A stretch of 64,000 nucleotides of DNA from positions 1,984,001 to 2,048,000 of the forward strand of contig NZ_JAPNKA010000001.1 in the NCBI RefSeq assembly GCF_026626635.1, read 5' to 3'. This document shows, piece by piece, positions 13,768-38,895 of this stretch (its first letter is position 1; every line of letters starts with the position of its first letter). The notes under the pieces were generated by a model. That model was given only the letters and a program-made list of their open reading frames with translations. It searched no databases and was not told the DNA's origin. The stretch is from Archangium lansingense. GTDB lineage: Bacteria; Myxococcota; Myxococcia; Myxococcales; Myxococcaceae. The position numbers were made by a program, and so were the translations under genes.

Positions 13768-13783
13768 CGGGAGGATGAGGGGT

Positions 13784-13810: not shown

Positions 13811-13915
13811 CCCCGCGCGGCTGTCTCTGAGAACACGGACAGGGCGGCAGGGGCCTGTTCCCCCTTGCTCGCCTGCCCTCCGGGCTGGCGGAAGGTTGAC
13901 ACTCGGATGCATTCT

Positions 13916-13938: not shown

Positions 13939-14576
13939 TGGACATGCTCGGAGACGCCTTGTTTCCCCCAGAGCCCCGCACCTTGTTACAGACCTTGAAG
14001 GCGGAGACCCGCCCCCACCATGAGCGCGCTGAGCGCGTGGTGCGCCTGCTGTCACCGGACCTCACCCTGTCCGGCTACCGTCGTCACCTGGAAGCCCTCT
14101 ACGGCCTCTACGCGCCGTTGGAAGCCGCCCTCGCTTCATGCTTGGAGGGCCTCTTCCCCGCGCTGCGCCTCGCCGATCGGTGGAAGTTGCCGCTGCTGGA
14201 GGCGGACCTCCGGGCACTCGGCCATGACGATGCTTCGCTGGCTCGCCTGCCGGTCTACTCTTGCCCGCCCGCGCTGCCTGGAGTGCCCGAAGCGCTCGGG
14301 ACGCTGTACGTCCTGGAGGGCGCGACGCTCGGTGGGCAGCTCATCCTTCGTCACCTCACGCGCCACTTCGAGCGGGGGGCCGCGGGTGGCTTCTCCTTCT
14401 TCCGGGCCTATGGAGAGTCTGTAGGGCCCATGTGGAGAGCCTTCGGCGAGGCCCTGCTGTGCGCCTGTCCGGACCCGGTACTGACTCCCCGGGTGGTGAG
14501 GGGCGCCCAGGACACCTTCGAGGCCTTCGAGGCCTGGCTCCGTGAGGTCCACGCCGATGCGCCCTCCAGTCTCTGA
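13938..14576 (+). CDS. bphO: biliverdin-producing heme oxygenase (BphO type)
   Basis: A 212-residue heme oxygenase that would open heme to biliverdin, iron and CO, supplying the chromophore for the bacteriophytochrome encoded next. The N-terminal helix has the pattern LKAETRPHHERAE, with the likely proximal heme ligand His28. A distal-helix region is seen as LGTLYVLEGATLGGQLI (about residues 118-134), matching the GxxYVxEGxxLGG motif of bacterial BphO enzymes. The ATG at 13938 is the start that fits the family N-terminus; another ATG (13944) is two codons later. The gene overlaps bphP by 20 bases, so the enzyme and its client photoreceptor are co-produced. A perfect palindrome lies on its start. 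Confidence 0.92.
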   Translation: MDMLGDALFPPEPRTLLQTLKAETRPHHERAERVVRLLSPDLTLSGYRRHLEALYGLYAPLEAALASCLEGLFPALRLADRWKLPLLEADLRALGHDDASLARLPVYSCPPALPGVPEALGTLYVLEGATLGGQLILRHLTRHFERGAAGGFSFFRAYGESVGPMWRAFGEALLCACPDPVLTPRVVRGAQDTFEAFEAWLREVHADAPSSL

Positions 14577-16791
14577 AGCGGACCTCTCCCAGTGCGAGCG
14601 TGAGCCCATCCACCTGCTGGGGGGCATTCAACCCCATGGAGTGTTGCTGGCCTTCTCGGAGCCGGACCTCACCCTGCGGCTGGTGAGCGCCAACACCGAG
14701 GCCTGGCTGGGGCGCCCACCGCAGGCACTTCTGGGTCGGCCGCTGGCAGAAGTCCTCCACTTCTCCTCTCTCGTCCTGCTCACCCGGGCGCTGTCCCAGC
14801 CCGTCAACGGTACCCTGCGCCTCGAGGCCGCGGGTCGCTTCTTCATGGGTCTGCTGCACCGGAGCGACGAACTGGCGGTGTTGGAGCTGGAGCCCACCGA
14901 GGCGGACTTCAGCGAGGAGGAGGCGTTGGGCATGGTGGACCTGCTCCTCTCGCCGCTGGCCCGCGCTCAGGGGCCGCTGGGGCTGCTCCAGGCGGCGGCG
15001 GAGGCGGTGCGCGCGCTCACCAGCTTCGACCGGGTGATGGTGTATCGCTTCGACGTGGACTGGCATGGTGAGGTGGTGGCGGAGAGCCGCGACGAGGCCA
15101 TGGACGGCTTCCTGGGCCTGCACTTCCCCGCGAGCGACATCCCCGCCCAGGCCCGCGCCCTCTACACGCGTCACACGCTGCGGCTCATCGCCGATGCGCG
15201 CGCCGCGCCCGTGTCGCTGGTGCCCTCCGTTCTGCCCTCGTTGGGGCGTCCGTTGGATCTGTCCGGCGCGGCCCTGCGCAGCGTGTCCCCTGTGCACCTG
15301 GAGTACCTCGCCAACATGGGGGTGGGCGCCTCCATGTCCATCTCCGTGCTGCGGGACGGCCGCCTGTGGGGCCTCATTGCGTGCCACCACCGCACGCCCC
15401 TCCTCGTACCGGCCGCCACGCGCCGCGCCTGTGACGTGCTGTCCCGGCTGGTGTCGCTGCAGCTCGCCGCCGAGGAGCGCGCCAGCGTGTCCGCCGAGCT
15501 CGCCCGCCGTGCCCACCTCCAGACACGGCTGGTGGAGCGGCTCTCCGAGCAGGCGGGGACGCTGCCCTCGGCGCTCTCCCGAGAGGCGGACCTCCTTCTC
15601 GGAATCACCGGGGCGGGTGGGGCGGCGCTGCTGCTGGGCGAGGCCCCCGTGCTCTTGGGCGCTACGCCCTCCTCCAAGGACGTGGTGGAGCTGGCCGCCT
15701 GGCTCGCCGGGCAGCACTTCGACGGCACCTTTCACACGGAGCGGCTCGGCCGGCTCCACCCGCCGGCTGCCGAGTACGCGGACGTGGCCAGCGGTCTGCT
15801 CGCGGTGCGCCTGGATGCGGTCACGCCCCGCTTCGTCCTCTGGTTCCGCCCGGAGGTGGCGCGCACCGTCACCTGGGCCGGCAATCCCCAGAAGCCCGTG
15901 GTGTCTGGGCCCGGTGCCAGCCGCCTCCACCCGCGCGCTTCCTTCGACGCCTGGCAGGAGACGGTGCGCGGGGCGAGCAGTCCCTGGACTCCCGAGGACG
16001 TGGCCGCCGCCATGGGCTTCCGCGGGGCGTTGGTGGGCGTGTTGTTGCGCCATGCCGTCGCCCTTGCCCGCTCCAACGTGGAGCTGGATGCCTTCAGCGG
16101 CACCGTGGCGCACGACCTCAAGGAGCCGCTGCGCGGCATCCAGCAGTACGCGGGCTTTCTGCTCGAGGACTACGGCGAGCAGCTCGGCGAGGACGGGCGC
16201 AGGCAGCTCGAGGAGGTGCGGTGGCTGGCCGGACGCACCCAAGGCCAGATGGATGCCCTCTTCGAATACAGCCGGGCTGGGCGTGTGGAGCTGGCCTGGG
16301 GCGAAGTGGACATGCAGGGTCTGGTGGAAGACGTGTTGCTGACCGTATCCGCCCGCTTGCAGGAGAATCAGGTGGAGGTGCGCACCCCCAGGCCGCTGCC
16401 TCGGGTGGAGTGTGATGGGGTCCGCATCCAGCAGGTCTGGGCGAACCTCCTCACCAATGCCGCCAAGTACCACCAGACGGGCGGGCCGCGTTGGGTGGAG
16501 CTGGGCTTCTATGGCCCGGGCGAGCCCCTCTCTTCCCCAGCGCGGCGGCGGCCGGATGAATACGTCTTCTACGTGCGGGACAACGGCATCGGCATCGCGG
16601 AGCGGTTCCACGAGGACATCTTCGAGATGTTCCGCCGGCTGCACCCTGCCCATTCCTATGGGGGCGGCAGCGGGGCGGGCCTGACCATCGCACGGCGGCT
16701 CGTCCGGCTGCACGGGGGCGAGCTGTGGGTAGAGTCCTCGCCCGGCCAGGGCTCCACCTTCTATTTCACGCTGGGAGAGAGGCCTCGTTGA
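14557..16791 (+). CDS. bphP: bacteriophytochrome histidine kinase
   Basis: A 744-residue red/far-red photoreceptor: PAS (about 10-125), GAF (about 140-305), PHY (about 315-505) and HisKA/HATPase (about 510-744). The biliverdin-binding Cys is Cys13 in the CEREPIHLLGGIQPHG motif. The GAF domain keeps FPASDIP (Asp194) and the CHH motif at residues 276-278. The kinase has its phospho-acceptor His519 (AHDLKEPLRG) with N (NLLTNAAKY), G1 (DNGIGI) and G2 (GGGSGAGL) boxes, so it is predicted active. The ATG at 14557 is preferred; a GTG at 14542 would add five residues. It lies inside the end of bphO and ends in TGATG with the mini-ORF that precedes the receiver-kinase gene. Confidence 0.95.
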   Translation: MRPPVSEADLSQCEREPIHLLGGIQPHGVLLAFSEPDLTLRLVSANTEAWLGRPPQALLGRPLAEVLHFSSLVLLTRALSQPVNGTLRLEAAGRFFMGLLHRSDELAVLELEPTEADFSEEEALGMVDLLLSPLARAQGPLGLLQAAAEAVRALTSFDRVMVYRFDVDWHGEVVAESRDEAMDGFLGLHFPASDIPAQARALYTRHTLRLIADARAAPVSLVPSVLPSLGRPLDLSGAALRSVSPVHLEYLANMGVGASMSISVLRDGRLWGLIACHHRTPLLVPAATRRACDVLSRLVSLQLAAEERASVSAELARRAHLQTRLVERLSEQAGTLPSALSREADLLLGITGAGGAALLLGEAPVLLGATPSSKDVVELAAWLAGQHFDGTFHTERLGRLHPPAAEYADVASGLLAVRLDAVTPRFVLWFRPEVARTVTWAGNPQKPVVSGPGASRLHPRASFDAWQETVRGASSPWTPEDVAAAMGFRGALVGVLLRHAVALARSNVELDAFSGTVAHDLKEPLRGIQQYAGFLLEDYGEQLGEDGRRQLEEVRWLAGRTQGQMDALFEYSRAGRVELAWGEVDMQGLVEDVLLTVSARLQENQVEVRTPRPLPRVECDGVRIQQVWANLLTNAAKYHQTGGPRWVELGFYGPGEPLSSPARRRPDEYVFYVRDNGIGIAERFHEDIFEMFRRLHPAHSYGGGSGAGLTIARRLVRLHGGELWVESSPGQGSTFYFTLGERPR

Positions 16792-16868
16792 TGGAACGGC
16801 CCCTGCTGCTGGTGGAGGACACGGTCAGCGCGGTGCTGCTTCCCGGACTGGAGGAGCCCCAGGGATGA
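16791..16868 (+). CDS. 25-codon mini-ORF resembling a response-regulator N-terminus
   Basis: The ORF encodes MERPLLLVEDTVSAVLLPG plus six more residues. ERPLLLVED is the beginning of a receiver domain (beta-1 strand and first acidic residues), but the ORF then stops at TGA (16866-16868). Its ATG shares the A of the bphP TGA (16789-16793 reads TGATG) and its stop overlaps the next ATG (ATGA at 16865-16868), giving an unbroken coupling chain. It may be the remnant of a deleted response regulator that now relays ribosomes, or a real leader peptide. Coding status is uncertain. Confidence 0.45.
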   Translation: MERPLLLVEDTVSAVLLPGLEEPQG

Positions 16869-18040
16869 GCTTGCGTGTGCTGCTCGTCGACGACAGCCTC
16901 GCGGATCAGCGGGGGCTGCGAAGGGCGCTCGAGAAGGATACGGAGGTGCAGTGGGAGGTGGAGCTGGCCAGCTCCGCCGAGGAGGCCCTGGAGCGCATGC
17001 GGCACGAGCCGGTGCCCGACGCGCTCGTCCTGGACTTCCACCTGCCGGGCATGGATGGGGTGACGCTGCTGCGCGAGCTGCGCGAGCGGTGCAAGGCGCG
17101 CATGCCCGCGGTGGTGGTGTACACCGGCAGCGGCAGCGAGGCCGTGGCGGTGGAGGCGATGAAGTCAGGGGCCCACGACTACCTCCTCAAGGAGACCTTC
17201 TCGCCGGAGCGCCTGCGCCACAGCCTCCACAATGCGGTGGAGGCGGTGCGCATGGTGCGCGAGCTGGAGGAGCACCGCCGCCAGGCGGAGAGCGCTGCGC
17301 GGGCGGCGCGCGAGGCTCTCGCGGTGCGCGACGAGTTCTTCGCCATCGCCACCCATGATCTCAAGGGGCCCCTGCAGAGCATCCTGTTGAGTACCCAGCT
17401 CTTGCGTCGTCAGCTGCCCCCGGAGGCGCAGACGGCCGGGGTGAAGACGCGGCTGGATCAGATCCTGCGTGGCACGCAGCGCATGGGCGAGCTGATCGAC
17501 CACTTCCTGGAGGTGACGCGGGGAGGGGAGAAGCCGCTGAAGCGCGAGCCGGTGGACCTGTTCGCGCTGGTGCGCGCCAAGGTACGCGAGCTGGGGCCGT
17601 TGATGGCCACGCACCCGGTGCACCTGCACGTGGAGGGCACGGACTTCCAGGGCAGTTGGGACGAGCCGAGCCTGGAGCGGGTGTTGGACAACCTGCTGGG
17701 CAACGCCGTGAAGTACAGCCCGCGGGGTGGCTCCATCGACGTGTGGCTGAGCGAGGAGTCTCCAGGCCCGGAGGGCTGGGTGCGGCTGCGCGTGCAGGAC
17801 CAGGGGATGGGGATTCCGGCGGCGGACCTGCCGCACATCTTCGAGCGCTTCCGCCGGGGCCGGAACGTGGCGCCGGTCATCTCCGGCAGTGGCGTGGGAC
17901 TGGCGAGCGCGCACCGGCTGGTGGAACTGCACGGCGGGACCCTCACCGTCGAGAGCGAGGAGGGCAAGGGCTCCACCTTCACCGTGCGGCTGCCACGAGG
18001 GATGGGCGCGCGCGAGTCCCAGGTGGAGCAGTCGGCCTGA
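16865..18040 (+). CDS. receiver-histidine kinase hybrid, probable bacteriophytochrome partner
   Basis: A 391-residue cytoplasmic protein with no membrane segment. The receiver domain (about 1-120) has the acidic pair Asp9/Asp10, phospho-acceptor Asp57 (VLDFHLPGMDG), the Thr in VVYTGSGSE and the Lys in LLKE. A coiled-coil linker (about 125-155) leads to HisKA (His164 in IATHDLKGPL) and a HATPase with N (NLLGNAVKY), G1 (DQGMGI) and G2 (GSGVGLAS) boxes. A receiver placed ahead of a kinase suggests that phosphorylation by BphP modulates the kinase. It is coupled to bphP through the mini-ORF. No DNA-binding output is encoded alongside, so the final target is elsewhere. It ends four bases from the convergent next gene. 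Confidence 0.92.
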   Translation: MSLRVLLVDDSLADQRGLRRALEKDTEVQWEVELASSAEEALERMRHEPVPDALVLDFHLPGMDGVTLLRELRERCKARMPAVVVYTGSGSEAVAVEAMKSGAHDYLLKETFSPERLRHSLHNAVEAVRMVRELEEHRRQAESAARAAREALAVRDEFFAIATHDLKGPLQSILLSTQLLRRQLPPEAQTAGVKTRLDQILRGTQRMGELIDHFLEVTRGGEKPLKREPVDLFALVRAKVRELGPLMATHPVHLHVEGTDFQGSWDEPSLERVLDNLLGNAVKYSPRGGSIDVWLSEESPGPEGWVRLRVQDQGMGIPAADLPHIFERFRRGRNVAPVISGSGVGLASAHRLVELHGGTLTVESEEGKGSTFTVRLPRGMGARESQVEQSA

Positions 18041-18974: not shown

Positions 18975-20291
18975 ATGCGCAACGGATGGCGTGGACTCGG
19001 TTTGTTGCTGCTGGTGCCCTGGCTGGCGGGCTGTGTGAGCGGGCCGAGGGTTCGGCTGGAGACGGGCGAGGGCCCGCCCATCGTCCATGTATCCCCGGCC
19101 ACCGAGCCCCCGCCGGTGCAGGTCGGCATGGAGGAGCTCGTGGGGGCCCTGACGGAGCTGGTGCTGCACATGCCGCTGAAGCTCTCCCTGCCGCGGAGGG
19201 CGGGCCGGGTGGTGCTCGCCTCGTGGGGAGGGGAGGAGGAGGGGGTGCAGCAGCGGCTGCGCGGGCAGTGCGCGCCCTCGGAGCCGGAGGACGGGTGCCT
19301 GGTGCTGCCGGGCAACGCGCCGCCTCCGGAGACGCTGGCGCGCCTGCGGCTGGCGCTCTCGTTCGCCATGGACAGCATCTGGGAAGGGGCGGCGGTTCCG
19401 CTCAGCGAGTACGTCGATCCGCTGGCCTTCAAGGTGATGGTCTATACGGCGCTGAGCACGTATCTGCTGACGTTGATGCTGCCGGACCCGGTGACGAAGG
19501 GACTGGCGGCGGTGCTCACGGTGTACCTGGTGGCCTACCTGGGGCTGGGGCCGGTATGGTCCATGGTGGAGGCGGGGTGGGTGTTGTTGGAGGAGGCCGG
19601 GCGGGCGAGGACGGTGGAGGAAGTGAGGGGGGCGGGCCAGCGCTTTGGCCGGGTGCTGGGGGACAACGGGATGCGCGTGTTCCTGCTGCTGGCGACGGCG
19701 GCCATCGGGGGCCAGACGCGCTTCGTGGGCAGGGGGCCGAAGTTGCCCGGATTCCGCCAGGCGGCACTGGCCTCTCCGGTGCGCACGCGGGTGAGCCTGG
19801 AGGCGGCGGGGCAGGTGAGGACGGTGGTGCTGGGCGCCAGGGAACTGGTGGTGGGACTGGCGCCCACGGCGGTGGCCTCCCAGGCCATGGGGCCGGGGGG
19901 CAGTTTGCCACCCGACCAGAAGTTACAGGCCAACGACAGTCTCGATGCGCAACCTCCGCAGGCATTGCTTGATTCGCAGGCCAAACATATCCAGAAAATA
20001 GAAAATATTATCCGCGATCACGCCAAGCCAAGTGATTTTGAAGGGGTCGCCAAAGAGCTTGCTGGTCAGAAATTTCCAAAGCCTGGTGGCGGCTACTGGG
20101 ATCATCGGCGCGAGATGCTCCAGTCCATCAGGGATCTCAAAAGGCACGTCAGGGCTCTTGAGGGCAGCCTGGAGAGTCCGGCACACTCATCTGTCGTTCG
20201 CTCATATGTACAGAGGGCGATAGACAAGGCCCGTGCCATGATCTCCCGTATGGAGGAAGCTCTTTCCGGAGGAGAGCCGCGTGGACAATAG
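18975..20291 (+). CDS. SitA-like polymorphic lipoprotein toxin
   Basis: A 438-residue protein with a lipoprotein signal (lipobox VPWLAGC, Cys about 20) and a following segment (VRLETGEGPPIVHVSP) like SitA-type toxins, which myxobacteria pass between cells by outer-membrane exchange. Three or four hydrophobic stretches lie at about 155-250. The C-terminal ~120 residues differ sharply: base composition falls (about 38% GC by hand count at 19981-20040) and rare codons such as ATA and AAA appear, as expected for a swapped toxin tip. The tip (KIENIIRDHAKPSDFEG through YWDHRREMLQSI) resembles my memory of the Ntox28 ribonuclease-type domain, unverified. It overlaps the immunity gene by 11 bases. 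No sitB-like partner is adjacent. Confidence 0.75.
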   Translation: MRNGWRGLGLLLLVPWLAGCVSGPRVRLETGEGPPIVHVSPATEPPPVQVGMEELVGALTELVLHMPLKLSLPRRAGRVVLASWGGEEEGVQQRLRGQCAPSEPEDGCLVLPGNAPPPETLARLRLALSFAMDSIWEGAAVPLSEYVDPLAFKVMVYTALSTYLLTLMLPDPVTKGLAAVLTVYLVAYLGLGPVWSMVEAGWVLLEEAGRARTVEEVRGAGQRFGRVLGDNGMRVFLLLATAAIGGQTRFVGRGPKLPGFRQAALASPVRTRVSLEAAGQVRTVVLGARELVVGLAPTAVASQAMGPGGSLPPDQKLQANDSLDAQPPQALLDSQAKHIQKIENIIRDHAKPSDFEGVAKELAGQKFPKPGGGYWDHRREMLQSIRDLKRHVRALEGSLESPAHSSVVRSYVQRAIDKARAMISRMEEALSGGEPRGQ

Positions 20292-20793
20292 AGAGCGAGT
20301 ACGGCACCTGGCTTCTCATGACCGTGAAGAGGTCTTGGAGGCCCTTCGGGAGTTGAAGCTGGATAAGGAGACGCCACCATCCGAAGAGGTTGTGGATGCC
20401 GGGCTGAAGTTGATGAAGAGCCCTGATCCCGAGACGAGGTATGAGGCCGTTTGGGCCCTGTGTCTCCATTGGGGAGACATGCGCACGCTCCCCATGCTGC
20501 GGTCAATGCTGGAGGGACAGGAGACGGATCTTGAGGTGCAGATCATCGTTGCCCGTTCCGTGGGTTCAATGGTCCAGCGATGTGGCCAACCTGATGAACA
20601 GTCGTTCAAGTCGCTTGCGCGTGTCGCGTTGGATGAAAGCGCGGCCTCCGAGTTCAGGGGAGTTGCGTATATCAGTCTTCGCGCTGCTGCCGGGTTGCTA
20701 CCAGCAGCAGAGGAAGCACATCTTCCAGAAGATATCCACCACCTGGAGGTGGATTGGAAATGGCTGCGCGCGATGGACGGTTTCAGCGCATGA
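20281..20793 (+). CDS. HEAT-repeat-like cognate immunity protein (SitI-like)
   Basis: A 170-residue, all-helical acidic protein without a signal peptide. Repeating helix pairs (RHLASHDREEVLEALRELKLD, DPETRYEAVWALCLHWGD, DLEVQIIVARSVGSMV, SEFRGVAYISLRAA) suggest a short HEAT-like solenoid. The GTG start at 20281 lies inside the toxin gene (11-base overlap), the usual toxin-immunity arrangement. It should act in the cytoplasm, binding the toxin tip to protect the producer and siblings. Base composition is lower in GC than the flanks, matching the toxin tip, so both were probably acquired together. The immunity role is inferred from position, size and lack of export signal. Confidence 0.7.
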   Translation: MDNRERVRHLASHDREEVLEALRELKLDKETPPSEEVVDAGLKLMKSPDPETRYEAVWALCLHWGDMRTLPMLRSMLEGQETDLEVQIIVARSVGSMVQRCGQPDEQSFKSLARVALDESAASEFRGVAYISLRAAAGLLPAAEEAHLPEDIHHLEVDWKWLRAMDGFSA

Positions 20794-21801: not shown

Positions 21802-22368
21802 TCAGTGCACCGCGGGCAGGCTGCCGCGCAGCATGAAGAAAATGACCACGCCCGTCACGGATACGTAGAGCCAGATGGGCGCCAGCCACCGCGTCACCTT
21901 CCGGTGCTTCTCGAAGGCCTTGCGCCACGCGAAGTAGAAGGCCAGCAGCGCGCCCGGCACCACGAACAGCGACAGCAGCACGTGGCTGGCCAGGATGGTG
22001 AGGTACACCGTCCTCATCACGCCGGTGCCCGCGTAGCGCGTGTCGCCGTGGACGAAGTGGTAGGCCAGGTAGCACACCAGGAAGAGCCCCGAGGATGCGA
22101 AGGCGGACACCATCAGGTACTGGTGCACGCGCCTCGCCTTGCGGCGGATGGCCACCCAGCCCGCCGTCAGGAACGCCGCCGCCAGCGCGTTGAAGCTCGC
22201 GTTCACCGCAGGCAGGAAGCGCAGGTCTACTCCGCCCACCGCGCCTCCTCGGCGGATGAGAAGAATGTACGCAAGAAATGAGAGAGCAGCGGCGGAGACC
22301 ACCGCGGTGAATACGTAGAATCCGCGGTCGCTCACGCGGGAAAGCGGGGCAGTCGTGGCGTCAGACAT
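21802..22368 (-). CDS. DUF420 family membrane protein (CtaM-like)
   Basis: A 188-residue protein with five predicted membrane segments (about 15-37, 52-70, 78-102, 115-142 and 160-178). Conserved-looking His residues sit at the membrane boundaries (RRVHQYLM, AYHFVHGDTRY, LASHVLLS, KHRKVTRW), the hallmark of DUF420. Members such as Bacillus YozB/CtaM are needed to assemble a heme-copper oxidase, so a role in cytochrome oxidase maturation is plausible, though no oxidase gene is adjacent. The ATG at 22366-22368 gives a short cytoplasmic N-terminus. The gene is divergent from the heme-motif locus starting at 22514 and shares its promoter region, which contains an inverted repeat. Confidence 0.82.
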   Translation of the reverse strand: MSDATTAPLSRVSDRGFYVFTAVVSAAALSFLAYILLIRRGGAVGGVDLRFLPAVNASFNALAAAFLTAGWVAIRRKARRVHQYLMVSAFASSGLFLVCYLAYHFVHGDTRYAGTGVMRTVYLTILASHVLLSLFVVPGALLAFYFAWRKAFEKHRKVTRWLAPIWLYVSVTGVVIFFMLRGSLPAVH

Positions 22369-22398
22369 GGCGTAGCTTTCTGTCCCGACTGTGCCCCG

Positions 22399-22513: not shown

Positions 22514-24550
22514 GTGCGATTCGCACGACGCTTCCTCGCCCCCCTGGCGACAGCTGTTCTTTTGGCTTCTCTCCCTGCCCTCGCGGAAGAACCGGTGTGT
22601 GCCCCGGTCTCGAAGGTTCCGCTCGAGCGCCACCTGCGCCAGCTCACGTTGGATCTGCTCGGCCGCCCCCCCACCTATGAGGAGTACCAGGCCGCCCGCG
22701 CCAAGGGCCAGGTGTCGGTCGAGGATGTCCGCGCGCTGATGGACAAGGAGGAGTTCTACGCGCGAATCCGCGGCTACCACCGCGCGCTCCTGTGGAGCAA
22801 CGTGAGCGCCAGCGTCTTCAACAACGGCAACTCGCGCCTGAGCGGTGCGGGCTCGGCCACGGACGCCTTCTCCCTGCGCGGCAACAGCAGCCGCCCGCTG
22901 CGCGGTGCCAACGGCCAGGGCTGTGACAGCTACATGGCCCAGGACGTGTGCAACGCCCGGCAGGATCCGCATGCGGACCCCGCGCTCCCCGCTACGACGG
23001 CGGCCTGCTCAGCCGAGCGCTACGACGAGCGCGGCGTGCCGAAGCCGGTGAGCTGGGACTACGACACCAACTTCTATAACTGCACCCGGGTGGATCAGAA
23101 CCTGGCGGACGGCACCCCCGTCAAGACCTGCCAGGAGGCGGCCGCCGCGAAGCGCCTCGGCGACAACGGGGAGCGCATCTACTTCTGCGACATGCGGCGC
23201 ATCAACGTTGGCAGCCCGGCGGTGCCGACGTTGGTTCCGCACGAGTGCAAGCCCAGGACGGCCACGTATCAGCCGGTCGCGGACGCGGCGGACGGCAACC
23301 GGGTGACCTCCTATGAGGATCCCACCGTCACGTCCAACGCCCCGCTCAAGCGCTGCGGGCTGACGCTCGGCCAGAAGCGCGCCAGCAATGGCGTGGAGAT
23401 CAAGGGCTCCTACGAGCCGCAGCGCGGCTGCGTCCATCGCGAGGGCTACGTCACGCGGCCCGCTCCCTTCTGGAACGCCGGGACCGCGGACGTGAGGGTG
23501 TGTGCCATCGAGGCGCAGACGCGCTCGGCCAACCCGTGGACGTTGGAGCCCTGCACCACCGCGCGCTTCAACGGGGACCGGAGCTGCGGCTGCGGCGAGG
23601 GCATGCGCCGCTGCGAGGCGACCAATGGCAGCACGCACGATGCCCGCGTGAAGGCCATCAGCGCGGAGCCCGAGCTCATCGCCGAGTCGGTGGTGCGCCG
23701 CGACGAGCCCTACTTCAACATCCTCACCACGCGCCGCTCCTTCCTCAACGGCCCGCTGTCGGAGATGTACAGGGATCCGCAGCAGGCCGTGGGCGTCTTC
23801 AGCGCGACGGCTCCGGCGACTCCCGAGGTGCTGCCCAACCTCCCCTTCGCACAGGCGGACACCTGGAAGGAGTACGTGCGTGACAGCGAGCACTCGGGTG
23901 TGCTCACCACGGCTTCGTTCCTCTACCGCTTCCCCACCCAGCGCGCGCGCGTCAACCACTTCTACGCGGCCTTCCTCTGCAAGGCCTTCACGCCGCCGGA
24001 CAACGCCAACCTGCCGCCCGCCGAGGATGCGTGCAACCGGGAGAACAACCTGGCCAAGCGCTGTGGCTGCAACTACTGCCACGCCACCATCGAGCCCACC
24101 GGCGCCCACTGGGGCCGCTACGCCGAGCGTGCCGCGCTCTTCCTCCAGCCGGAGCAGTTCCCCCGCTACGATCCCAAGTGCCGCGACTGCGCGCTCTCGG
24201 GCAACACCTCGTGCGGTGGCGAGTGCGGCCAGTACGTGATGCAGGCGTATGACGGCGACGGCGCCAACTCGCTGGGTCTGCTCAAGACGTACCTCTACCG
24301 CACCGCGGACGAGGAGAAGAACATCGAGAGCGGCCCCGCCCTGCTGGTGCAGCGCATGCTGCAGACGGGCGACCTGGAGCGCTGCACCGTGCGGCGCGTC
24401 TGGCAGGAGTTCCTCGGCCGGCCCATGTCGGTGGAGGAGCAGCGCCTCTATCTCCAGCCGCTCGCCGACGACTTCGCGCGGGACGGCCACCGTTTCAAGG
24501 CGCTCATCGAGCGCGTGTTGATGTCGGACGCCTACCGGAGGATCGACTGA
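22514..24550 (+). CDS. exported DUF1549/DUF1588-like Cys-rich heme-motif protein
   Basis: A 678-residue protein. The GTG at 22514 is chosen because GGAGG lies seven bases upstream and a clean signal peptide follows (RRFLAPLATAVLLASLPALA). Residues ~30-95 resemble DUF1549 (LERHLRQLTLDLLGRPPTYEEY). The middle (about 120-400) is a long Cys-rich insertion, probably disulfide-bonded. CGCNYCHATIEPTGAHWGRY (about residue 515) is a heme c-like motif in DUF1588 context, and the C-terminus (VWQEFLGRPMSVEEQRL to VLMSDAYRR) resembles DUF1585. It is the first gene of a five-gene locus ending at 31930 and couples to the next gene through TGATG. A periplasmic or surface redox role is plausible; the reaction is unknown. 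Confidence 0.75.
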   Translation: MRFARRFLAPLATAVLLASLPALAEEPVCAPVSKVPLERHLRQLTLDLLGRPPTYEEYQAARAKGQVSVEDVRALMDKEEFYARIRGYHRALLWSNVSASVFNNGNSRLSGAGSATDAFSLRGNSSRPLRGANGQGCDSYMAQDVCNARQDPHADPALPATTAACSAERYDERGVPKPVSWDYDTNFYNCTRVDQNLADGTPVKTCQEAAAAKRLGDNGERIYFCDMRRINVGSPAVPTLVPHECKPRTATYQPVADAADGNRVTSYEDPTVTSNAPLKRCGLTLGQKRASNGVEIKGSYEPQRGCVHREGYVTRPAPFWNAGTADVRVCAIEAQTRSANPWTLEPCTTARFNGDRSCGCGEGMRRCEATNGSTHDARVKAISAEPELIAESVVRRDEPYFNILTTRRSFLNGPLSEMYRDPQQAVGVFSATAPATPEVLPNLPFAQADTWKEYVRDSEHSGVLTTASFLYRFPTQRARVNHFYAAFLCKAFTPPDNANLPPAEDACNRENNLAKRCGCNYCHATIEPTGAHWGRYAERAALFLQPEQFPRYDPKCRDCALSGNTSCGGECGQYVMQAYDGDGANSLGLLKTYLYRTADEEKNIESGPALLVQRMLQTGDLERCTVRRVWQEFLGRPMSVEEQRLYLQPLADDFARDGHRFKALIERVLMSDAYRRID

Positions 24551-25212
24551 TGCGACGCCTGCTCCTGTTCGCGCTGCTCGCGCTCGGCGCAGCCGCGTGT
24601 GAGAAGACCCCCGCTGCTCCGCCCCCGCTGGATGGACAGCTCGAGCCAGTGGCCAACCCTCATGGGGACATGGCCGACCCCCTGCCGGACCCCGAGCTGC
24701 AGGATGGTCGGGTGGGGCGCTCCGCTCGCCGGCTCACCGTGGACCAGCTCGACCGCTCCATTGAGGTAGCGGTGGGCCGCTCGTGGACGGGCCTCGACAA
24801 TGGCCTGGGCACCACCCTGGGCCGGGCCGACTTCGCGCTCGTCAACCAGGAGAGCACCGAGCCCAACCTCGTGTTCGCCAAGTTCCTCGAGGACGGGGCG
24901 CGCGAGGTGTGCATGGCGCAGGCGGCGGCCGAGAAGAGCCTGGCCTCGCCCGAGGCCCGCGTGCTCAGCCGCACGATTCCCGGACCGCTCTCGGACCTGC
25001 GCAAGCTCTCCGACGACCAGGTGCGCGAGCTGCTCGTGTACCTGTCCATCCGCTTCTGGGGCTCGCCGCTGCAGGGTGAGGAGCTGACGCGCTGGTCGGA
25101 CTTCTTCAAGAAGGCGGCGACGCGCGCGGAGGCCCTCACCAATGGCCGTGACCAGGCCCTGGCCGCGGTGTGCATCGCGCTGATGACCGACTCGCGGTTC
25201 CTCACCTACTGA
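24550..25212 (+). CDS. predicted lipoprotein of the DUF1501 locus
   Basis: A 220-residue protein with a lipoprotein signal (MRRLLLFALLALGAAAC, Cys17). The mature part starts with a Pro-rich linker and then SARRLTVDQLDRSIEVAVGRSWTG, which resembles the RRLTxxQxxRSI opening of DUF1592-family (DUF1587-like) domains. The rest is helical, with paired acidic stretches, one Cys in the middle and one near the end (AAVCIALMTDSRFLTY). That tail resembles the ends of DUF1592-family proteins, so this may be a split partner of the upstream protein. Its ATG shares a base with the upstream TGA, so the two are made together. No enzymatic motif. Confidence 0.65.
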   Translation: MRRLLLFALLALGAAACEKTPAAPPPLDGQLEPVANPHGDMADPLPDPELQDGRVGRSARRLTVDQLDRSIEVAVGRSWTGLDNGLGTTLGRADFALVNQESTEPNLVFAKFLEDGAREVCMAQAAAEKSLASPEARVLSRTIPGPLSDLRKLSDDQVRELLVYLSIRFWGSPLQGEELTRWSDFFKKAATRAEALTNGRDQALAAVCIALMTDSRFLTY

Positions 25213-25233
25213 CGGCTCCGGGGAGATTCATCC

Positions 25234-26628
25234 ATGAAGAAGAACCTCGAGACTCCTACCTCTCGCCGGACCATCCTGAAGGCCGCCGCTGGCTTCATGG
25301 GCACCACCGTCTTCGGGGGCCTGCCCTTCAGCGCCTTCGCGCAGGCGGCCACGCTCAAGCCCGCGGACCGCTGCTTCGTCTTCGTCTACTTCTCGGGTGG
25401 GTGGGATCAGCTTCTCGCCTTCGATCCGAGGGACCCGGAGGTCTTCACGCCCGAGCGCGTTGCCGAGACGCGCATCCTTCCGGGCTACAACCTCTTCACC
25501 GACGGGACGGATCCCTTCCCCATCATGCCGGCCGAGCTGCCGGGAGCGGGCCCCTCCAACATCACCTTCGGCCCGGCGGTGGGCGAGCTGGCGAAGCACT
25601 ACGACGTCATGTCGGTGGTGCGTGGCATCAACATGACCACGCTCGCGCATGAAGAGGGGATGCGCTACTTCATCACCGGCAAGCGCCCCATCGGTGCGGC
25701 GGCGCGTGGCTCGTCCACGGCGACGGAGATCGTCGGCCAGATGGTGCCCAACGTCCCCATCCCCTCCATCGCGTACGGCGTCGAGTCGTACAACGATCGG
25801 TTCTCCGGTAGCGCCAACGCGCTGCGGGTGAGCCGCTCGAAGGACCTGGTGGACACGCTGTCACCCAGCAAGAAGCGGCTCGACAGTCAGATCGAGGCGG
25901 AGCTGCTGGCGCTGGGCAGTGCGCCCATCACCTGCGACGAGGCGGCCCTGAGCGCGGGCGGCGTGGGGCAGACGTACGAGTCGAGCCGCGAGCAGGTGAA
26001 GCAGGTGATCAACAGCCAGCTCAACGAGGCCTTCGACTTCGCGTTGGCGAAGAACGACACCGTCCGCACGACCTACGGGCTGCAGCCCAATGGGTCCAAC
26101 TCCTACGACTCCGCGGCCGGGCGCGCGGCGCTGGTGGCCACGGCGCTCAAGCTGGGCATCAGCCAGTGCGTGTCCATCAACCTGGTGGGCGGCCTGGACA
26201 CGCACTTCGGCACGCAGACGACGCACCTGTCCAACCTGCGTTCGGGCTTCAACGCGCTGGCAGCCCTGGTGAAGGACCTGAAGAACAGTGTCCACCCGGT
26301 GTCCGGCCGCAAGTTCATCGAGCACACCACCATCCTGGTGTTCTCCGAGTTCGCGCGCACCCCGCTCATCAACGCCACTAACGGCCGCGACCATCACCTG
26401 ACCAATAGCTGTCTGCTGATGGGCGCCGGGCTGAAGCACAACATGGTGTTCGGCCACAGCGGTGACATCGGCATGGCGCCGGGGCTGGTGGACCTGAAGA
26501 CGGGCGCGAAGGACTCGAACAACGGGGAGAACATCCTGCCCGAGCACATCATCGCGACGGTGCTGGCGTCGGCCAACCTGGACTACAGCATCACGCGTGT
26601 CGACCCCCTCAAGGCTCTGCTGAAGTGA
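25234..26628 (+). CDS. DUF1501 family Tat-exported protein
   Basis: A 464-residue protein with a clear Tat signal (SRRTILKAAAGFMG at about 10-23, then a hydrophobic stretch and an AQA cleavage region). The DUF1501 family is related to sulfatase/phosphatase-fold proteins and has no established reaction. FVFVYFSGGWDQLLAFDPRD, GLDTHFGTQTTHLSNLRSG and FSEFARTPLINATNGRDHHLTNSCLLMGAG are diagnostic, the last two holding His/Asp residues that could bind metal. Members are usually encoded next to DUF1549/DUF1800/DUF1592 proteins carrying CxxCH, as here. The stop overlaps the first possible start of the next gene (TGATG at 26626-26630). Confidence 0.9.
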   Translation: MKKNLETPTSRRTILKAAAGFMGTTVFGGLPFSAFAQAATLKPADRCFVFVYFSGGWDQLLAFDPRDPEVFTPERVAETRILPGYNLFTDGTDPFPIMPAELPGAGPSNITFGPAVGELAKHYDVMSVVRGINMTTLAHEEGMRYFITGKRPIGAAARGSSTATEIVGQMVPNVPIPSIAYGVESYNDRFSGSANALRVSRSKDLVDTLSPSKKRLDSQIEAELLALGSAPITCDEAALSAGGVGQTYESSREQVKQVINSQLNEAFDFALAKNDTVRTTYGLQPNGSNSYDSAAGRAALVATALKLGISQCVSINLVGGLDTHFGTQTTHLSNLRSGFNALAALVKDLKNSVHPVSGRKFIEHTTILVFSEFARTPLINATNGRDHHLTNSCLLMGAGLKHNMVFGHSGDIGMAPGLVDLKTGAKDSNNGENILPEHIIATVLASANLDYSITRVDPLKALLK

Positions 26629-26658
26629 TGGATACCCGAGCTTCGTTCCGTGTAGGCC

Positions 26659-26693
26659 CCCTCTCCCGCTGGGAGAGGGCAGGGGTGAGGGTC
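26659..26693 (+). repeat. palindromic repeat, copy 1 (inside a gene start)
   Basis: CCCTCTCCC (26659-26667), loop GCT, GGGAGAGGG (26671-26679), then a tail with GGGGTGAGGGTC to 26693. The same 9-bp stem and a GGGTGAGGG tail occur at 34076 and 38863 in the same orientation. It looks like a REP-like dispersed element. Its tail supplies the probable GTG start codon of the heme lipoprotein gene. Confidence 0.8.
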
Positions 26694-28187
26694 TCTCCCC
26701 TGTTGCTCGCGGCCCTGCTGTCCGCCTGCGACCCCACGCCTTCGGTGCCGCAGGACCACCCGAGTCCCGAGCCGTTCCAGCCGATGCAGGTGCAGGCTGC
26801 GGTGGATGTGGCGCCAGCGCCGGGCTTCGCGGACCAGACGGGAGGCGGCATCTTCGCGACAGCGGAGGGCAACGTCATCCGCCTGCGGCTGGACGGCACG
26901 AAGGCGGCGCTGGAGAGCCACCCGGGGAACACGGTGACGCCGGGCCGGGCCCGAGCCGTCTTCCGGATGGGACCGGACTCGGCGCTGGTGGAGGCGGACA
27001 ATGGCCTCTTCCTGGCGCAGTCGGGCTGGCTCATCGCCCCGCCCTGGCGCGAGGTGCTGAGCACGGGGCTGGCGGCCACGGCGGCGACGCCGGACGGAGC
27101 GGTGTGGCTCGGACATGCCTCGGGCCTCTACCGGTTGCAGGACGGCGCGCTGTCCGCGCTCAAGGTGAATGGCCAGGCGCTGGAGGGCATCACCACGCTG
27201 GCGTCGGCGCCCGCGGAGGATGGGTCGCAGGGCCTGTGGTTCCTTCGTCAGGAGACGCTGAGCGTCGCCGTGCGCACGGCCCCGGGCACCTGGCAGGTGC
27301 GTCAGGTCACCTCGCTGCCGCTGAAGGAGGGCGAGCGTGTCGTGGGGCTGGCGGGGCTGGGTGCCTCGGAGAAGGGGAAGGGCGAGGCGTGGGTGCTGAC
27401 GTCGGAGCGGCTGATGCGGCGCGCGGCGGACGGGTGGCGGCAGGTGGCGCTCGCGCGCAAGCCGGAGCAGCTGCTGGCCGCGGGGCGCTTCATCTGGGTG
27501 AAGGTGGACGGCAAGCTGCTCTCCCATGACGCGGAGGCGGGCACGTGGGGCGAGGCCTCGGGCGTGGACACGCGCGAGTTCCGCTTCCTGGCGGCTGACG
27601 AGAGCGGCTGTGCCTGGGTGCAGCTCGGCGCCGACACGGTGGCGCTCACCCGCGGCCCGATACCGCGAGTGCTTGGGCTGCTCGAGGGCTCGCAGGTGGT
27701 GGAGGACGCCCTGGTGGTGCGCTCGCGCGTGGTGCCGGGCGTGGCGCCGCTGAGCTTCGTCTACGAGGTGGCGGGCGTGGAGGTGCCGGTGCGCGGGCCC
27801 GACTACAGCCTCGGCGGCTCGGAGGCGGACGGGACGCCGAAGCCCTACTCCTTCGTGGGCCTGGAGCCGGGACTGCACACGCTGAGCGCCGTGGCGCGCT
27901 ACGCGGATGGCACCGAGGCCCGACGCTCGGTCTCCTTCGACTACCAGCCGCTGTCCACCGTGGCGCTCGGCTGGGACAAGGACATCCGTCCCATCCACGA
28001 GGCGCGGTGCGCCAAGTGCCATGACTCCGGGCCCGCGCGGCCCCTCTCCACGTACACGCTGTGGAAGGACAACGCGGAGCTCATCATCGCGGCGGTGAAG
28101 GATCAGCGCATGCCCGCGGATGGTCCGTTGGATCCGCAGCTCATCTCCCTCATCCAGCGCTGGGCGGCCACCGGCGCGAATCCCTGA
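26685..28187 (+). CDS. lipoprotein with C-terminal cytochrome c-type heme motif
   Basis: About 500 residues from the GTG at 26685, or 519 from the ATG at 26628 that overlaps the DUF1501 stop. The GTG is preferred because it gives a compact lipoprotein signal (MRVSPLLLAALLSAC) with GAGAGG upstream; both start and ribosome site would then come from a palindromic repeat. Residues ~40-330 read like a beta-propeller sensor/reporter fold (GGIFATAEGNVIRL, AVWLGHASGLYRLQDG). An Ig-like segment follows, and a C-terminal cytochrome c-like domain carries CAKCH (Cys442 in the short form) with a possible axial Met in DQRMPADG. It fits an electron-carrying lipoprotein of the DUF1501 locus. Confidence 0.75.
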   Translation: MRVSPLLLAALLSACDPTPSVPQDHPSPEPFQPMQVQAAVDVAPAPGFADQTGGGIFATAEGNVIRLRLDGTKAALESHPGNTVTPGRARAVFRMGPDSALVEADNGLFLAQSGWLIAPPWREVLSTGLAATAATPDGAVWLGHASGLYRLQDGALSALKVNGQALEGITTLASAPAEDGSQGLWFLRQETLSVAVRTAPGTWQVRQVTSLPLKEGERVVGLAGLGASEKGKGEAWVLTSERLMRRAADGWRQVALARKPEQLLAAGRFIWVKVDGKLLSHDAEAGTWGEASGVDTREFRFLAADESGCAWVQLGADTVALTRGPIPRVLGLLEGSQVVEDALVVRSRVVPGVAPLSFVYEVAGVEVPVRGPDYSLGGSEADGTPKPYSFVGLEPGLHTLSAVARYADGTEARRSVSFDYQPLSTVALGWDKDIRPIHEARCAKCHDSGPARPLSTYTLWKDNAELIIAAVKDQRMPADGPLDPQLISLIQRWAATGANP

Positions 28188-28198
28188 GGCGCTTCAAC

Positions 28199-31100
28199 AT
28201 GTCCCGAGTCTTCCGCACGTCGCTCGTGCTCGCCCTCCTGTCCACGGCCTGCGAGCCCGAGGAGAAGCCCCCCGAGCAGCCCGTGGCGGTGGACCCCTGC
28301 GCGGGTCTGCAGCCCCTGGCCCTCTCCGCGAGCCCCACCCGGACGCGGGTGAAGGAGCCCGTCACGCTCACGGCCACGGGCGGCAGTGGCCACTACCGCT
28401 ACCTCGTCGAGCCCGGAGGCTCCTCGGGAGAGATGCGGGGCTCGCGCTTCATCGCCGGGCTCACGCCGTCGGTGGACACGCTGGCGGTGGAGGACATGCG
28501 CTGCCCTGGGGACGCGCGGACGCAGGTGGAGGTGGTGGCGGCCTTCGACGTGGCTCCCGCGCGGGCCACGCTGAAGCCGGGAACGACCTTCCAGGTACAG
28601 GTGACGGGGCAGATGGGTGCGCCCGTCTTCACCCTGGACCGCAGCGACGCGAACAGCACGGTGACGCCCTCGGGCCAGTACACGGCGGGGACAGGGACGG
28701 GCGTGGACCTGGTGCGGGTGCGCGATAGCCGCACGGGTGACGAGGCCCTGCTCCAGTTCGAGGTCCGCACGGACGCGGTGCTGCGCGGAGACCCGGAGCG
28801 TCTGGCCGTGCCCGCCGGCTCGTCGGTGCAGCTCTTGACGGTGGGCGGCAGTGACCGGATTGCCTGGACGAAGGTGTCCGGACCGGGCTCGGTGGAGGGC
28901 GGGCGCTTCTCGGCCGAGCAGGGGGCGACGGGCGCGGCGGTACTGGAGGGGACGGATCCCTTCACGAAGCAGAAGACGACGGTGTCGGTGCGCGTGCTGG
29001 ACGAGCTGACGCGCGCAACGCAGCCGCACGGCCAGGTTACCGACACCGCCGCGGTGGTGACGGCGGACTTCGACGGGGATGGAGTGGCGGACGTGGCGGT
29101 GGGGCGGCCGGAGAGTGATCTCAACCGGCCCCAGGGTGGCGTGGTGTTCATCTTCAAGGGGAGCACGGCGGGCCTGCCCGCGCAGCCCACGTGGGTGCTC
29201 ACGGGAGAGACGGACACGGCCCGGTTTGGTGATGGGCTGGTGGCGGGAGACATCGACAAGGATGGGAAGGCGGAGCTGGTGGTGTCCTCGCCGGGCGCGG
29301 ACGTCACCATCGACAGCTCGGGCGCGGTGTACCTGTACCGCTTCGGAACCAACGGGCCGGAGCGCATTCGGCCGCCGCTGGCCGGGTTGGGCCGGGGTGC
29401 CTTCGGCACGGGCGTAGCGCTCGAGGACGTGGACGGGGATGGAGACCTGGACCTGCTGGCGGGCTCGCCAGCGGGTGACCTGGCGGCCACCAACCAGATT
29501 TCGACTCGCGGCGTGGTGGACATCTTCCAGCTCACCCCGGGGCAGCCGATTCCGGACCTGCCCTCCATCCGTCTGGGCGGGAGCGACATCAGCGTGAGCG
29601 GCGCCATCGAGCAGCGCTCGCGGACGGGCATCGGCCAGGCGGTGGTGGTGGCGGACCTCAATGGGGACGGACGGCCGGACCTCGCGGCGCTGGGGAAGAC
29701 TTCGCGCTACCGGGCGGATGGCTCTTCCCTGGGCGTGGTGCAGCCCGCGGTGTCCGTGTTCTTCGCGCGCGCCGAGGGCACCCGCTTCCGCGCCACGCCG
29801 GACGTCTTCGTGCTGCCGACGAACGCGTCGGACGGCAACGAGGGCTCCTGGCGGCTGGGTGCCATTCCAGGTGACGGGACTCGGCCCCCGCTGCTGATGG
29901 TGTTGCTGGACCGGGCGGACTCGCCGGATCTTCGCACCAGTAACGGGCTGAACTTCATGACGGACGCGGGCGGAGCGCTGCTCTTCGACGTGAGCACGTA
30001 CGCGCCCACGGGTGATCCCGCATCCACGCCGGCGCAGGTACTGCTGGCGAATGCCTATGCCCGCTTCTACGGGGACGCGGCCTCCATCGTGGCGGGGCGG
30101 AGCTGGGCCCTGGCGGACGTGGATGGCACGCCCGGAGTGGAGCTGCTGCTGGGGGCGCCCTACGCGAGCATCCCCTCGGGGACGACGTCGCTGCGCTACG
30201 GCGGCAAGGTGCTGGTGTACCCGCTGACGGGGCTGGCCCGGGGCACGGCCCTCAACAGGCCGCCCTCCTTCCTGCCGGGGCTGGCGAAGTCGGACGCCTT
30301 CGGGGTGGGTATCGCGCCCTGGACCTTGCCGGGGACCTCGGGGCTGGTGGTCTTCGCGGGGCGGGCCTCCGCGCCGGACGGCCGTGCCTTCACCGGCAGA
30401 GTGGATGGCTTCGTGAAGGCGGGCGAGTCGCTCGCGCAGTGGACGCGCTCGAGCTACCTGGTCCCGGCGAAGCCGAGCGTGGAGCGCTTCGGTGAGGCGG
30501 TGGCGGTGGGCAGGGGCAAGGACGGAGCCGTGGTGGCGCTGGTGGGCTCGCCGGGTTTCGCTGGCCCGGGGGTGAACGCGGACGGCAATGACTTGTCGGC
30601 GGGCCGGGCGTGGACGTATGGCGCGGCGGGCGGCGCGGGCACGCTCGTGGCCGAGGGGACGAACTCCCCCTTGTACAACGGGCGCACCGTGGGCGCGGAC
30701 GTGGCCTTCTCGGACTTCAACGGAGACGGGAAAGCGGACCTGGTGATGGGCGCGTCGGGCTTCACCATCCCGAGGACCGCCTCGAACGTCTCGGAGCTGG
30801 GGAACGCCTACCAGGTGGTGAGGACCCAGTGCCTGCCTACCGGCTCCACGGACCTGCAGGCCGGTGGCGTGCTGGTGTCGCTGGCCCAGGAGGATGGGAG
30901 CTACAAGGCCGCGTACCGGCTGTGGGCCATTGGCAACATCACGGAGAACTGCCCCTCGGGCAGCACCTGCACGCGCGCGGGCATCGGGCGCGGGGTGGTG
31001 GGTGGCTTCGACTTCAACGGGGACGGCCTGCAGGACATCGGAGCGCTGCGCAACAGCGGCTTCGAGCTCTTCCTGGGGCGGGCGCCGGATGACGCCACGC

Positions 31101-31930
31101 TGGCGAAGCGGACGATGGCGTGCGACCCCGTCTACTCCTCGCCCTACTTCGTGACGTCCACGACGGCGCAGACGACCTCGGTGCCCGTGTCGCTGGGAGA
31201 CCTGAATGCGGACGGCTGCGACGAGGTGGCGTGGCGCTACTCGGATGGAAGCCAGCGCTCGGGCGTGGCGGTGCTGTTCGGCTTCGACGCGGGCGGTACC
31301 CGGTGTGGCGGGCGCACGGCCGCGAAGCTGGTGCGGCTGGCAGCGGACCCGGAGGTGGGCATGAACTACATGGGGCTGGGGCTGGCCGTGGCTCGCGTGG
31401 GCCGCGTGCTGGGCAAGACGGGTCCGGACTACCTGGCGGTGAGCGCGACGAACGTGCCCTACAACGGCGTGACGCAGCCGGCGGTGCTGCTGTTCGACAC
31501 GGCGAAGCTGAAGGACGCGTGGCTGGGCTCGGGGGGCAAGGACGTGGTGGGCGCGATGGAGAGCGCGGTGATTCCCCAGATAGTGGTGCACCGCTCGCGG
31601 GCGGTGGGCTTCGGGACGGCGCTGGCGGGTGGCGTGGACCTGACGGGCGACGGTGTTCCGGAGCTGGTGGTGAGCGCACCGGGCGCGTCGGTGGCCTCGG
31701 ATGGCGGAGGCGCGGTGTTCGTGTACGCGGGCGGGCCGGGGGCTACCGGAGCGCTCACGCCCATGTTGACGCTCACGGGCGACGTGACGGAGCGCGCGGG
31801 CTTCGGCAACGACCTGGCGTTGATGGCGGGGAGTGGGAGCTCTCCGCCGACGCTCGTCGTTGGCGCACCGCTGAGCTACCGCACGGGCACGCAGAACGGC
31901 ACGGCCTTCGTGGTGCCGCTCGGCTTCTGA
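28199..31930 (+). CDS. large FG-GAP/integrin-like beta-propeller lipoprotein
   Basis: A 1243-residue protein with a lipoprotein signal (VLALLSTAC, Cys about 15) and two or three Ig-like domains (about 30-270). A long series of FG-GAP repeats follows with calcium-binding loops such as DFDGDGVAD, DIDKDGKAE, DVDGDGDLD, DLNGDGRPD, DFNGDGKAD, DFNGDGLQD and DLTGDGVPE. The repeats probably form one or two seven-bladed propellers on the cell surface. Such domains bind proteins or sugars in adhesion. It begins 11 bases after the heme lipoprotein stop and closes the five-gene locus. A surface scaffold or adhesin for the exported redox proteins is a reasonable inference; no partner is proven. Confidence 0.85.
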   Translation: MSRVFRTSLVLALLSTACEPEEKPPEQPVAVDPCAGLQPLALSASPTRTRVKEPVTLTATGGSGHYRYLVEPGGSSGEMRGSRFIAGLTPSVDTLAVEDMRCPGDARTQVEVVAAFDVAPARATLKPGTTFQVQVTGQMGAPVFTLDRSDANSTVTPSGQYTAGTGTGVDLVRVRDSRTGDEALLQFEVRTDAVLRGDPERLAVPAGSSVQLLTVGGSDRIAWTKVSGPGSVEGGRFSAEQGATGAAVLEGTDPFTKQKTTVSVRVLDELTRATQPHGQVTDTAAVVTADFDGDGVADVAVGRPESDLNRPQGGVVFIFKGSTAGLPAQPTWVLTGETDTARFGDGLVAGDIDKDGKAELVVSSPGADVTIDSSGAVYLYRFGTNGPERIRPPLAGLGRGAFGTGVALEDVDGDGDLDLLAGSPAGDLAATNQISTRGVVDIFQLTPGQPIPDLPSIRLGGSDISVSGAIEQRSRTGIGQAVVVADLNGDGRPDLAALGKTSRYRADGSSLGVVQPAVSVFFARAEGTRFRATPDVFVLPTNASDGNEGSWRLGAIPGDGTRPPLLMVLLDRADSPDLRTSNGLNFMTDAGGALLFDVSTYAPTGDPASTPAQVLLANAYARFYGDAASIVAGRSWALADVDGTPGVELLLGAPYASIPSGTTSLRYGGKVLVYPLTGLARGTALNRPPSFLPGLAKSDAFGVGIAPWTLPGTSGLVVFAGRASAPDGRAFTGRVDGFVKAGESLAQWTRSSYLVPAKPSVERFGEAVAVGRGKDGAVVALVGSPGFAGPGVNADGNDLSAGRAWTYGAAGGAGTLVAEGTNSPLYNGRTVGADVAFSDFNGDGKADLVMGASGFTIPRTASNVSELGNAYQVVRTQCLPTGSTDLQAGGVLVSLAQEDGSYKAAYRLWAIGNITENCPSGSTCTRAGIGRGVVGGFDFNGDGLQDIGALRNSGFELFLGRAPDDATLAKRTMACDPVYSSPYFVTSTTAQTTSVPVSLGDLNADGCDEVAWRYSDGSQRSGVAVLFGFDAGGTRCGGRTAAKLVRLAADPEVGMNYMGLGLAVARVGRVLGKTGPDYLAVSATNVPYNGVTQPAVLLFDTAKLKDAWLGSGGKDVVGAMESAVIPQIVVHRSRAVGFGTALAGGVDLTGDGVPELVVSAPGASVASDGGGAVFVYAGGPGATGALTPMLTLTGDVTERAGFGNDLALMAGSGSSPPTLVVGAPLSYRTGTQNGTAFVVPLGF

Positions 31931-34075: not shown

Positions 34076-34110
34076 CCCTCTCCCTCTGGGAGAGGGCCAG
34101 GGTGAGGGTC
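34076..34110 (+). repeat. palindromic repeat, copy 2
   Basis: CCCTCTCCC (34076-34084), loop TCT, GGGAGAGGG (34088-34096), then CCAGGGTGAGGGTC. The stem is identical to copies 1 and 3; only the loop differs. It is intergenic, between the ferritin-like gene and argE, 58 bases before the argE start. Confidence 0.8.
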
Positions 34111-38862: not shown

Positions 38863-38895
38863 CCCTCTCCCGCTGGGAGAGGGTCGGGGTGAGGG
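38863..38895 (+). repeat. palindromic repeat, copy 3
   Basis: CCCTCTCCC (38863-38871), loop GCT, GGGAGAGGG (38875-38883), then TCGGGGTGAGGG. Identical stem and loop to copy 1. It sits between the convergent OmpA lipoprotein and mfd genes, where it could act as a bidirectional terminator. Confidence 0.8.

Follow-up and report, generated by a model that had tools for sequence, protein, structure and literature searches.

In a 64,000-nucleotide window of the 13.8 Mb genome of the myxobacterium Archangium lansingense, five neighbouring genes at positions 22,514-31,930, here termed P1 to P5, encode a set of exported proteins (Table 1). P1 is a Cys-rich protein with a CxxCH motif, P2, P4 and P5 are lipoproteins, of which P4 ends in a tail with the motif CAKCH and P5 carries FG-GAP repeats, and P3 is a DUF1501 protein with a signal for twin-arginine translocation (Tat). 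This description, first given in a reading made from the DNA letters (hereafter the sequence-only reading), agrees with the open reading frames (ORFs) and the Pfam matches, and so does the tight spacing it had reported, as all five genes lie on the forward strand and neighbours either overlap by 1-4 bases or are 11-21 bases apart. A sequence scan of the five proteins revealed one CxxCH in P1 and one in P4, and none in P2, P3 or P5. Promoter and RNA scans gave no match. The cluster is a real conserved unit and not a chance grouping, and we discuss it here as a possible heme-linked metallohydrolase complex of the cell envelope.

Table 1 Genes and other features of the analysed window. Positions are those of the whole 64,000-nucleotide stretch.
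Feature	Positions	Strand	Remarks
P1, exported Cys-rich CxxCH protein (CNYCH)	22514-24550 (alternative in-frame ATG 22478)	+	ORF, Pfam
P2, 220-aa lipoprotein, lipobox LGAAAC	24550-25212	+	1-base overlap with P1
P3, Tat-exported DUF1501 protein	25234-26628	+	21-base gap after P2
P4, lipoprotein, lipobox ALLSAC, putative cytochrome c tail	26625 or 26628-28187	+	1-4-base overlap with P3
P5, 1,243-aa FG-GAP lipoprotein, lipobox LSTAC	28199-31930	+	11-base gap after P4
Dispersed repeat CCCTCTCCCNNTGGGAGAGGGNNGGGGTGAGGG within P4	26659-26691	+	in frame, signal-peptide region
Further copy of CCCTCTCCCNNTGGGAGAGGGNNGGGGTGAGGG	34076-34108		
Further copy of CCCTCTCCCNNTGGGAGAGGGNNGGGGTGAGGG	38863-38895		
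DUF420 (CtaM-like) membrane protein	21802-22369	-	divergent from the block
Heme-oxygenase-like gene, bacteriophytochrome-like histidine kinase, response-regulator/kinase hybrid, in a row	13782-18040	+	first two named by eye, third by Pfam
Lipoprotein with weak C-terminal Ntox28 (bacterial toxin) match	18975-20291	+	Pfam, below cut-off
HEAT-repeat protein	20281-20793		after the Ntox28-like lipoprotein

Co-occurrence was analysed in 193 genomes of the phylum Myxococcota with P1, P4 and P5 as markers. Orthologs were present in 81 (P1), 79 (P4) and 80 (P5) of these genomes. Joint conservation in relatives had been set beforehand as the observation on which the proposed grouping depended, and 79 of the 81 P1-bearing genomes indeed hold all three markers. 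Both exceptions resemble assembly gaps: one genome (G007) has a completeness of 78% and a contig that stops approximately 2.5 kb after P3, and in the other (G181) the P5 match starts at base 32 of its contig. The starts of P1, P4 and P5 lie within 7.7 kb in all 69 genomes that carry the three genes on one contig. Furthermore, all fetched Myxococcaceae loci with a contig long enough to span the block keep the order P1-P2-P3-P4-P5 on one strand, down to identities of 44-52%; the closest named relative among all loci fetched is Archangium violaceum, with a P1 that is 81% identical. Carriers of P1 include members of the genera Archangium, Myxococcus, Corallococcus, Pyxidicoccus, Hyalangium and Citreicoccus, among them Myxococcus xanthus AM003 (L100), and in nearly all cases the block is present as a single ortholog per genome. 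By co-conservation and order the five genes thus form a single evolutionary unit, which bears out the evolutionary part of the earlier claim that they make up one assembly.

The order of a CxxCH lipoprotein followed by P1, P2 and a DUF1501 protein recurs in divergent paralogs within the family and in other classes of the Myxococcota. The lipoproteins of these loci (approximately 400 amino acids, with a CxxCH) are homologous to P4 over their length (hhalign probability 99.3%, E 4e-20). One locus (L138) contains the core without P4, and several other core contigs end too early to judge the presence of P4. At many of the P4-P1-P2-P3 loci no P5-like gene was found. Outside the family, a large FG-GAP gene stands divergently beside P4 at two loci (L139, L142); the protein of L142 is 28.6% identical to P5 over 357 residues (E 9e-28), and the alignment of P5 with both proteins covers the N-terminal part ahead of the FG-GAP repeats. 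As this linkage is kept despite a changed gene order, it argues for a shared function more strongly than synteny alone would. The core is a set of four genes, P4-P1-P2-P3, to which P5 is an addition, a distinction that the sequence-only reading had not noticed. The genome of A. lansingense contains three further DUF1501 loci (G000:C1) at 2.74 Mb (L070), 5.80 Mb (L072) and 7.62 Mb (L071), and next to each of its four DUF1501 genes lie a CxxCH lipoprotein and a protein that is of the PSD type or similar to P1.

P3 scores far above the cut-off for DUF1501 (PF07394; 97.3 vs. 27 bits), and the twin-arginine motif is conserved in 34 of 35 homologs, in line with its previous assignment as a Tat-exported protein. 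Tat export suits a protein that is metallated in the cytoplasm. An AlphaFold2 model of P3, inferred from 36 homologs, reached a mean predicted local distance difference test (pLDDT) value of 83.8 and a predicted template modelling (pTM) score of 0.83. The best Foldseek match of this model was a carrageenan sulfatase (E 1.8e-5). Alignment with VIA-align gave a Z-score of 19.8 with the alkaline phosphatase PafA (268 residues, 3.6 Å) and of 19.6 with a nucleotide pyrophosphatase/phosphodiesterase (NPP), and Z was at least 8 in 489 of the 868 chains aligned to the model. The predicted fold is that of the alkaline phosphatase superfamily, a relationship missing from the sequence-only reading, and it suggests that at least one activity of P3 is the metal-dependent hydrolysis of esters. 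A search by sequence for a solved DUF1501 structure returned as its sole match the signal peptide of trimethylamine N-oxide reductase 1 and was discarded.

The residues H139, D322, H324, E372, R375, N380, D386 and H387 of P3 are identical in 36 of 36 DUF1501 proteins, and all of them except R375 and N380 are putative metal-type residues. D58 was found in 26 of 26 members of the module and in 80% of other DUF1501 proteins, and T136 is shared by every member of the module and by just 1 of the 10 other DUF1501 proteins. The order of D58, T136, D322, H324, E372, D386 and H387 matches the ligand motifs of the superfamily, whose canonical set comprises an Asp, a Thr/Ser/Cys nucleophile, Asp-x3-His, Asp-His and His, except that F373 takes the place of an expected His. 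P3 would share its predicted fold and the order of its acidic and His residues with PafA, NPP and the sulfatases, whereas its identity to them amounts to 9-13%. One may also imagine that P3 is catalytically dead and that the complex has a structural or stress-related role in stabilising the envelope or internal membranes. This would be in line with a report by Kamneva et al. 2012 (cited in PMC4452313 and PMC4960237) that clusters with DUF1501 occur preferentially in those bacteria of the Planctomycetes-Verrucomicrobia-Chlamydiae (PVC) group that have internal membranes, and with Rhodopirellula baltica, in which a PSCyt/PSD gene and its presumed regulator, an extracytoplasmic function (ECF) sigma factor, were discussed under the common stress response (PMC2754498). 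However, the metal-type residues do not vary even between DUF1501 proteins that are very distant from each other, which is unlike a dead enzyme, and we regard a structural role as unlikely.

The C-terminal tail of P4 contains CAKCH followed by RMPADG. Its residues C462, C465, H466, M496 and P497 are invariant in 24 proteins, and the Met-Pro pair lies 30 residues past the CxxCH, a pattern that fits a c-type cytochrome with His/Met ligation. Cytochrome_CBB3 was matched at E ≤0.01 by 12 of 24 P4 relatives, and P4 of the window itself stayed below the cut-off (14.6 vs. 27 bits). The body of P4 ahead of the cytochrome domain is probably a propeller. PSCyt1 (PF07635) was rejected as an assignment of the tail, with a match in none of the 24 P4 relatives; it was weakly matched by the paralogous lipoprotein of L070 only. 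The signal-peptide region of P4 also harbours a dispersed repeat, CCCTCTCCCNNTGGGAGAGGGNNGGGGTGAGGG, similar to repetitive extragenic palindromic (REP) elements, which has 169 exact copies in the genome (reversed control, 0). At this site the closest orthologs (L030 and L031) have no copy, whereas a similar copy is present in L032, L033 and L034 and a partial one in L038.

P1 carries a Sec-type export signal and a remote PSCyt2...PSD4-PSCyt3-PSD2 architecture. All five of its PSCyt/PSD matches were below the Pfam cut-offs, namely PSCyt2 (DUF1549, 25.1 vs. 29.8 bits), PSD2 (DUF1585, 22.2 vs. 25.8), PSD1 (DUF1553, 20 vs. 28.5), PSD4 (DUF1592, 16.6 vs. 23.3) and PSCyt3 (DUF1588, 15.5 vs. 27), and among P1 relatives the PSD4 match is as strong as E 6e-45. 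P2 was also below the cut-off for PSD5 (DUF1595; 15.2 vs. 34.2 bits); this family was matched at E ≤0.01 by 5 of 21 P2 relatives. C121 and C208 of P2 are invariant. Because these scores miss the Pfam cut-offs, we file P1 and P2 as remote PSCyt/PSD relatives only. The kinship with the DUF1501/PSCyt proteins of Planctomycetes that had been proposed for the locus is real, although it is weak for P1 and P2. The motif C519-x2-C522-H523 of P1 is invariant in 26 relatives, and the invariant CxxCH sites of P1 and P4 support this part of the sequence-only reading. The P1 motif is followed by H532, C556 (22/22) and C571 (21/22) as conserved candidate ligands, of which the two cysteines may instead form disulfides, given the Cys-rich composition of P1. 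The structure model of P1 had a pLDDT of 76 and matched no known fold; its best match, a phycobilisome protein (Z 5.2), was below the chance level of the tool.

An oxidative attack on a polymer, one of the two functions suggested before, would assign a peroxidase- or oxygenase-like chemistry to the hemes and an accessory role to P3. The missing conserved distal Met in P1 could leave an open heme site, and in freshwater Verrucomicrobia PSCyt genes adjoin sulfatase genes and some encode carbohydrate-binding modules (PMC5615132). However, the five proteins matched neither a carbohydrate-binding domain nor any domain known from peroxidases, oxygenases or copper oxidases, P1 is without a fold match and the P4 tail resembles a plain electron-transfer cytochrome; it is thus improbable that the hemes themselves attack a polymer. 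The second suggestion, a conduit for extracellular electron transfer, has in its favour that two heme proteins and surface-type lipoproteins are encoded in one operon, just as porin-cytochrome conduits combine heme proteins with outer-membrane lipoproteins. Since the only two heme-type proteins have a single CxxCH each, and since no porin family or multiheme cytochrome was matched in the five genes and the ten neighbouring ORFs scanned, we consider such a conduit highly improbable. To our knowledge, a metal-respiring lifestyle is also not known for these aerobic bacteria, which further counts against it.

P5 contains eight FG-GAP repeats (144.7 vs. 22.1 bits in Pfam) and seven calcium-loop motifs of the DxDxDGxxD type, each of which is conserved in 14 or more of 17 orthologs. 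This supports the earlier view of P5 as a calcium-dependent FG-GAP propeller. The same conservation would suit an adhesin assembly, in which the functional surface protein would be P5, while P1 and P4 would act in a chaperone-like manner and not as electron carriers. The precedent is TfcP of M. xanthus, a c-type cytochrome with His/Cys ligation that promotes the binding of calcium by PilY1.1 and thereby stabilises it (PMC8833165); in this bacterial group a c-type cytochrome thus already works together with a surface protein that binds calcium. That P1 is without a conserved distal Met yet keeps C556 and C571 could be understood in the same way. However, TfcP is a His/Cys cytochrome with a type I signal peptide, whereas P4 is a DUF1501-linked lipoprotein whose Met-Pro fits canonical, probable His/Met ligation. 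Moreover, the four-gene core occurs at many loci at which no P5-like gene was found, and an adhesin assembly leaves P3 without a role, so that we consider this explanation distinctly unlikely.

We tentatively favour, with a likelihood somewhat short of even, a heme-linked metallohydrolase complex that is tethered to the outer membrane. P3, presumably a divergent metalloenzyme of the alkaline phosphatase superfamily, would be folded in the cytoplasm, exported by Tat and form the enzymatic head, whose substrate may be a polymer of the envelope or the environment that bears a sulfate, phosphate or similar ester. P1 and P4, with one putative c-type heme each, would connect the respiratory chain with the P3 reaction or with an oxidation that goes along with it, and P2 would pair with P1. 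P5 would be an FG-GAP propeller stabilised by calcium, and its task would be to present or bind either the substrate or a surface. The complex would probably be tethered to the outer membrane through the lipid anchors of P2, P4 and P5. It may further be speculated that the metalloenzyme is obligately heme-coupled in a new kind of surface enzyme complex, with ester cleavage or another reaction at the metal site being gated or driven by electron flow to the respiratory chain, but this seems rather unlikely. We know of no redox-coupled member of the alkaline phosphatase superfamily.

Several points weigh against the metallohydrolase complex. E372-F373 of P3 sits by motif order at the Asp-His of the superfamily and departs from the textbook ligand set, and a profile comparison mapping the P3 ligands onto the phosphodiesterase family was not significant, so that the mapping follows from motif order alone. 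In P1, no conserved distal Met was found at a place comparable to that in P4, so that its putative heme may not carry electrons, and its model gave no recognised fold among the structure matches. The five proteins have no Pfam match to carbohydrate-active enzyme (CAZyme) or carbohydrate-binding domains, the complex is inferred from gene linkage only, and no biochemical data on any DUF1501 or PSCyt protein were found in the open-access literature searched.

In the same literature we found no described function for DUF1501/PSCyt genes, no paper on this five-gene block, and nothing useful on a link between Myxococcus and FG-GAP or DUF1501 proteins. For the PSCyt/DUF1501 gene pairs of Planctomycetes and Verrucomicrobia, an involvement in carbohydrate metabolism was proposed (PMC5615132). 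Planctomycetes are rich in DUF1501/PSCyt genes, and two of the domains occur 41 times each in R. baltica (PMC2754498). The locus shares with these systems the neighbourhood of an exported PSCyt/PSD-type protein and a Tat-type DUF1501 protein, which there may also be DUF1552 (PMC5615132, PMC2754498, PMC4452313), to which P1, P2 and P3 are also distantly related in sequence. In contrast, cytochrome and PSD domains are joined in single proteins of varying arrangement in Verrucomicrobia (PMC5615132) and split over P1 and P2 here, a second cytochrome is located on the lipoprotein P4, and the FG-GAP lipoprotein P5 is added. The myxobacterial block is best read as a split form of the PSCyt/DUF1501 pair known from Planctomycetes, with an FG-GAP protein as an additional partner. 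It represents a compact DUF1501/PSCyt version, in nearly all cases with a single ortholog per genome, in a group that includes the genetically tractable M. xanthus. The fixed set of subunits and the predicted fold of P3 thus open a protein family that has long been without an assignment to direct tests in a tractable host.

Upstream of P1, the DUF420 gene is divergent from the block at almost all block loci with a contig that extends that far. CtaM-like DUF420 proteins are involved in oxidase maturation (PMC4958251). As DUF420 also occurs in block-less genomes of the family and the order, it was rejected as specific evidence of a functional partner. In two related genomes without the block (L178, L182) it is still located near the usual downstream genes, which suggests that the block was gained or lost as a unit. 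Further upstream lie the row of heme-oxygenase-like and signal transduction genes and the Ntox28-like lipoprotein, of which the HEAT-repeat protein could be a partner.

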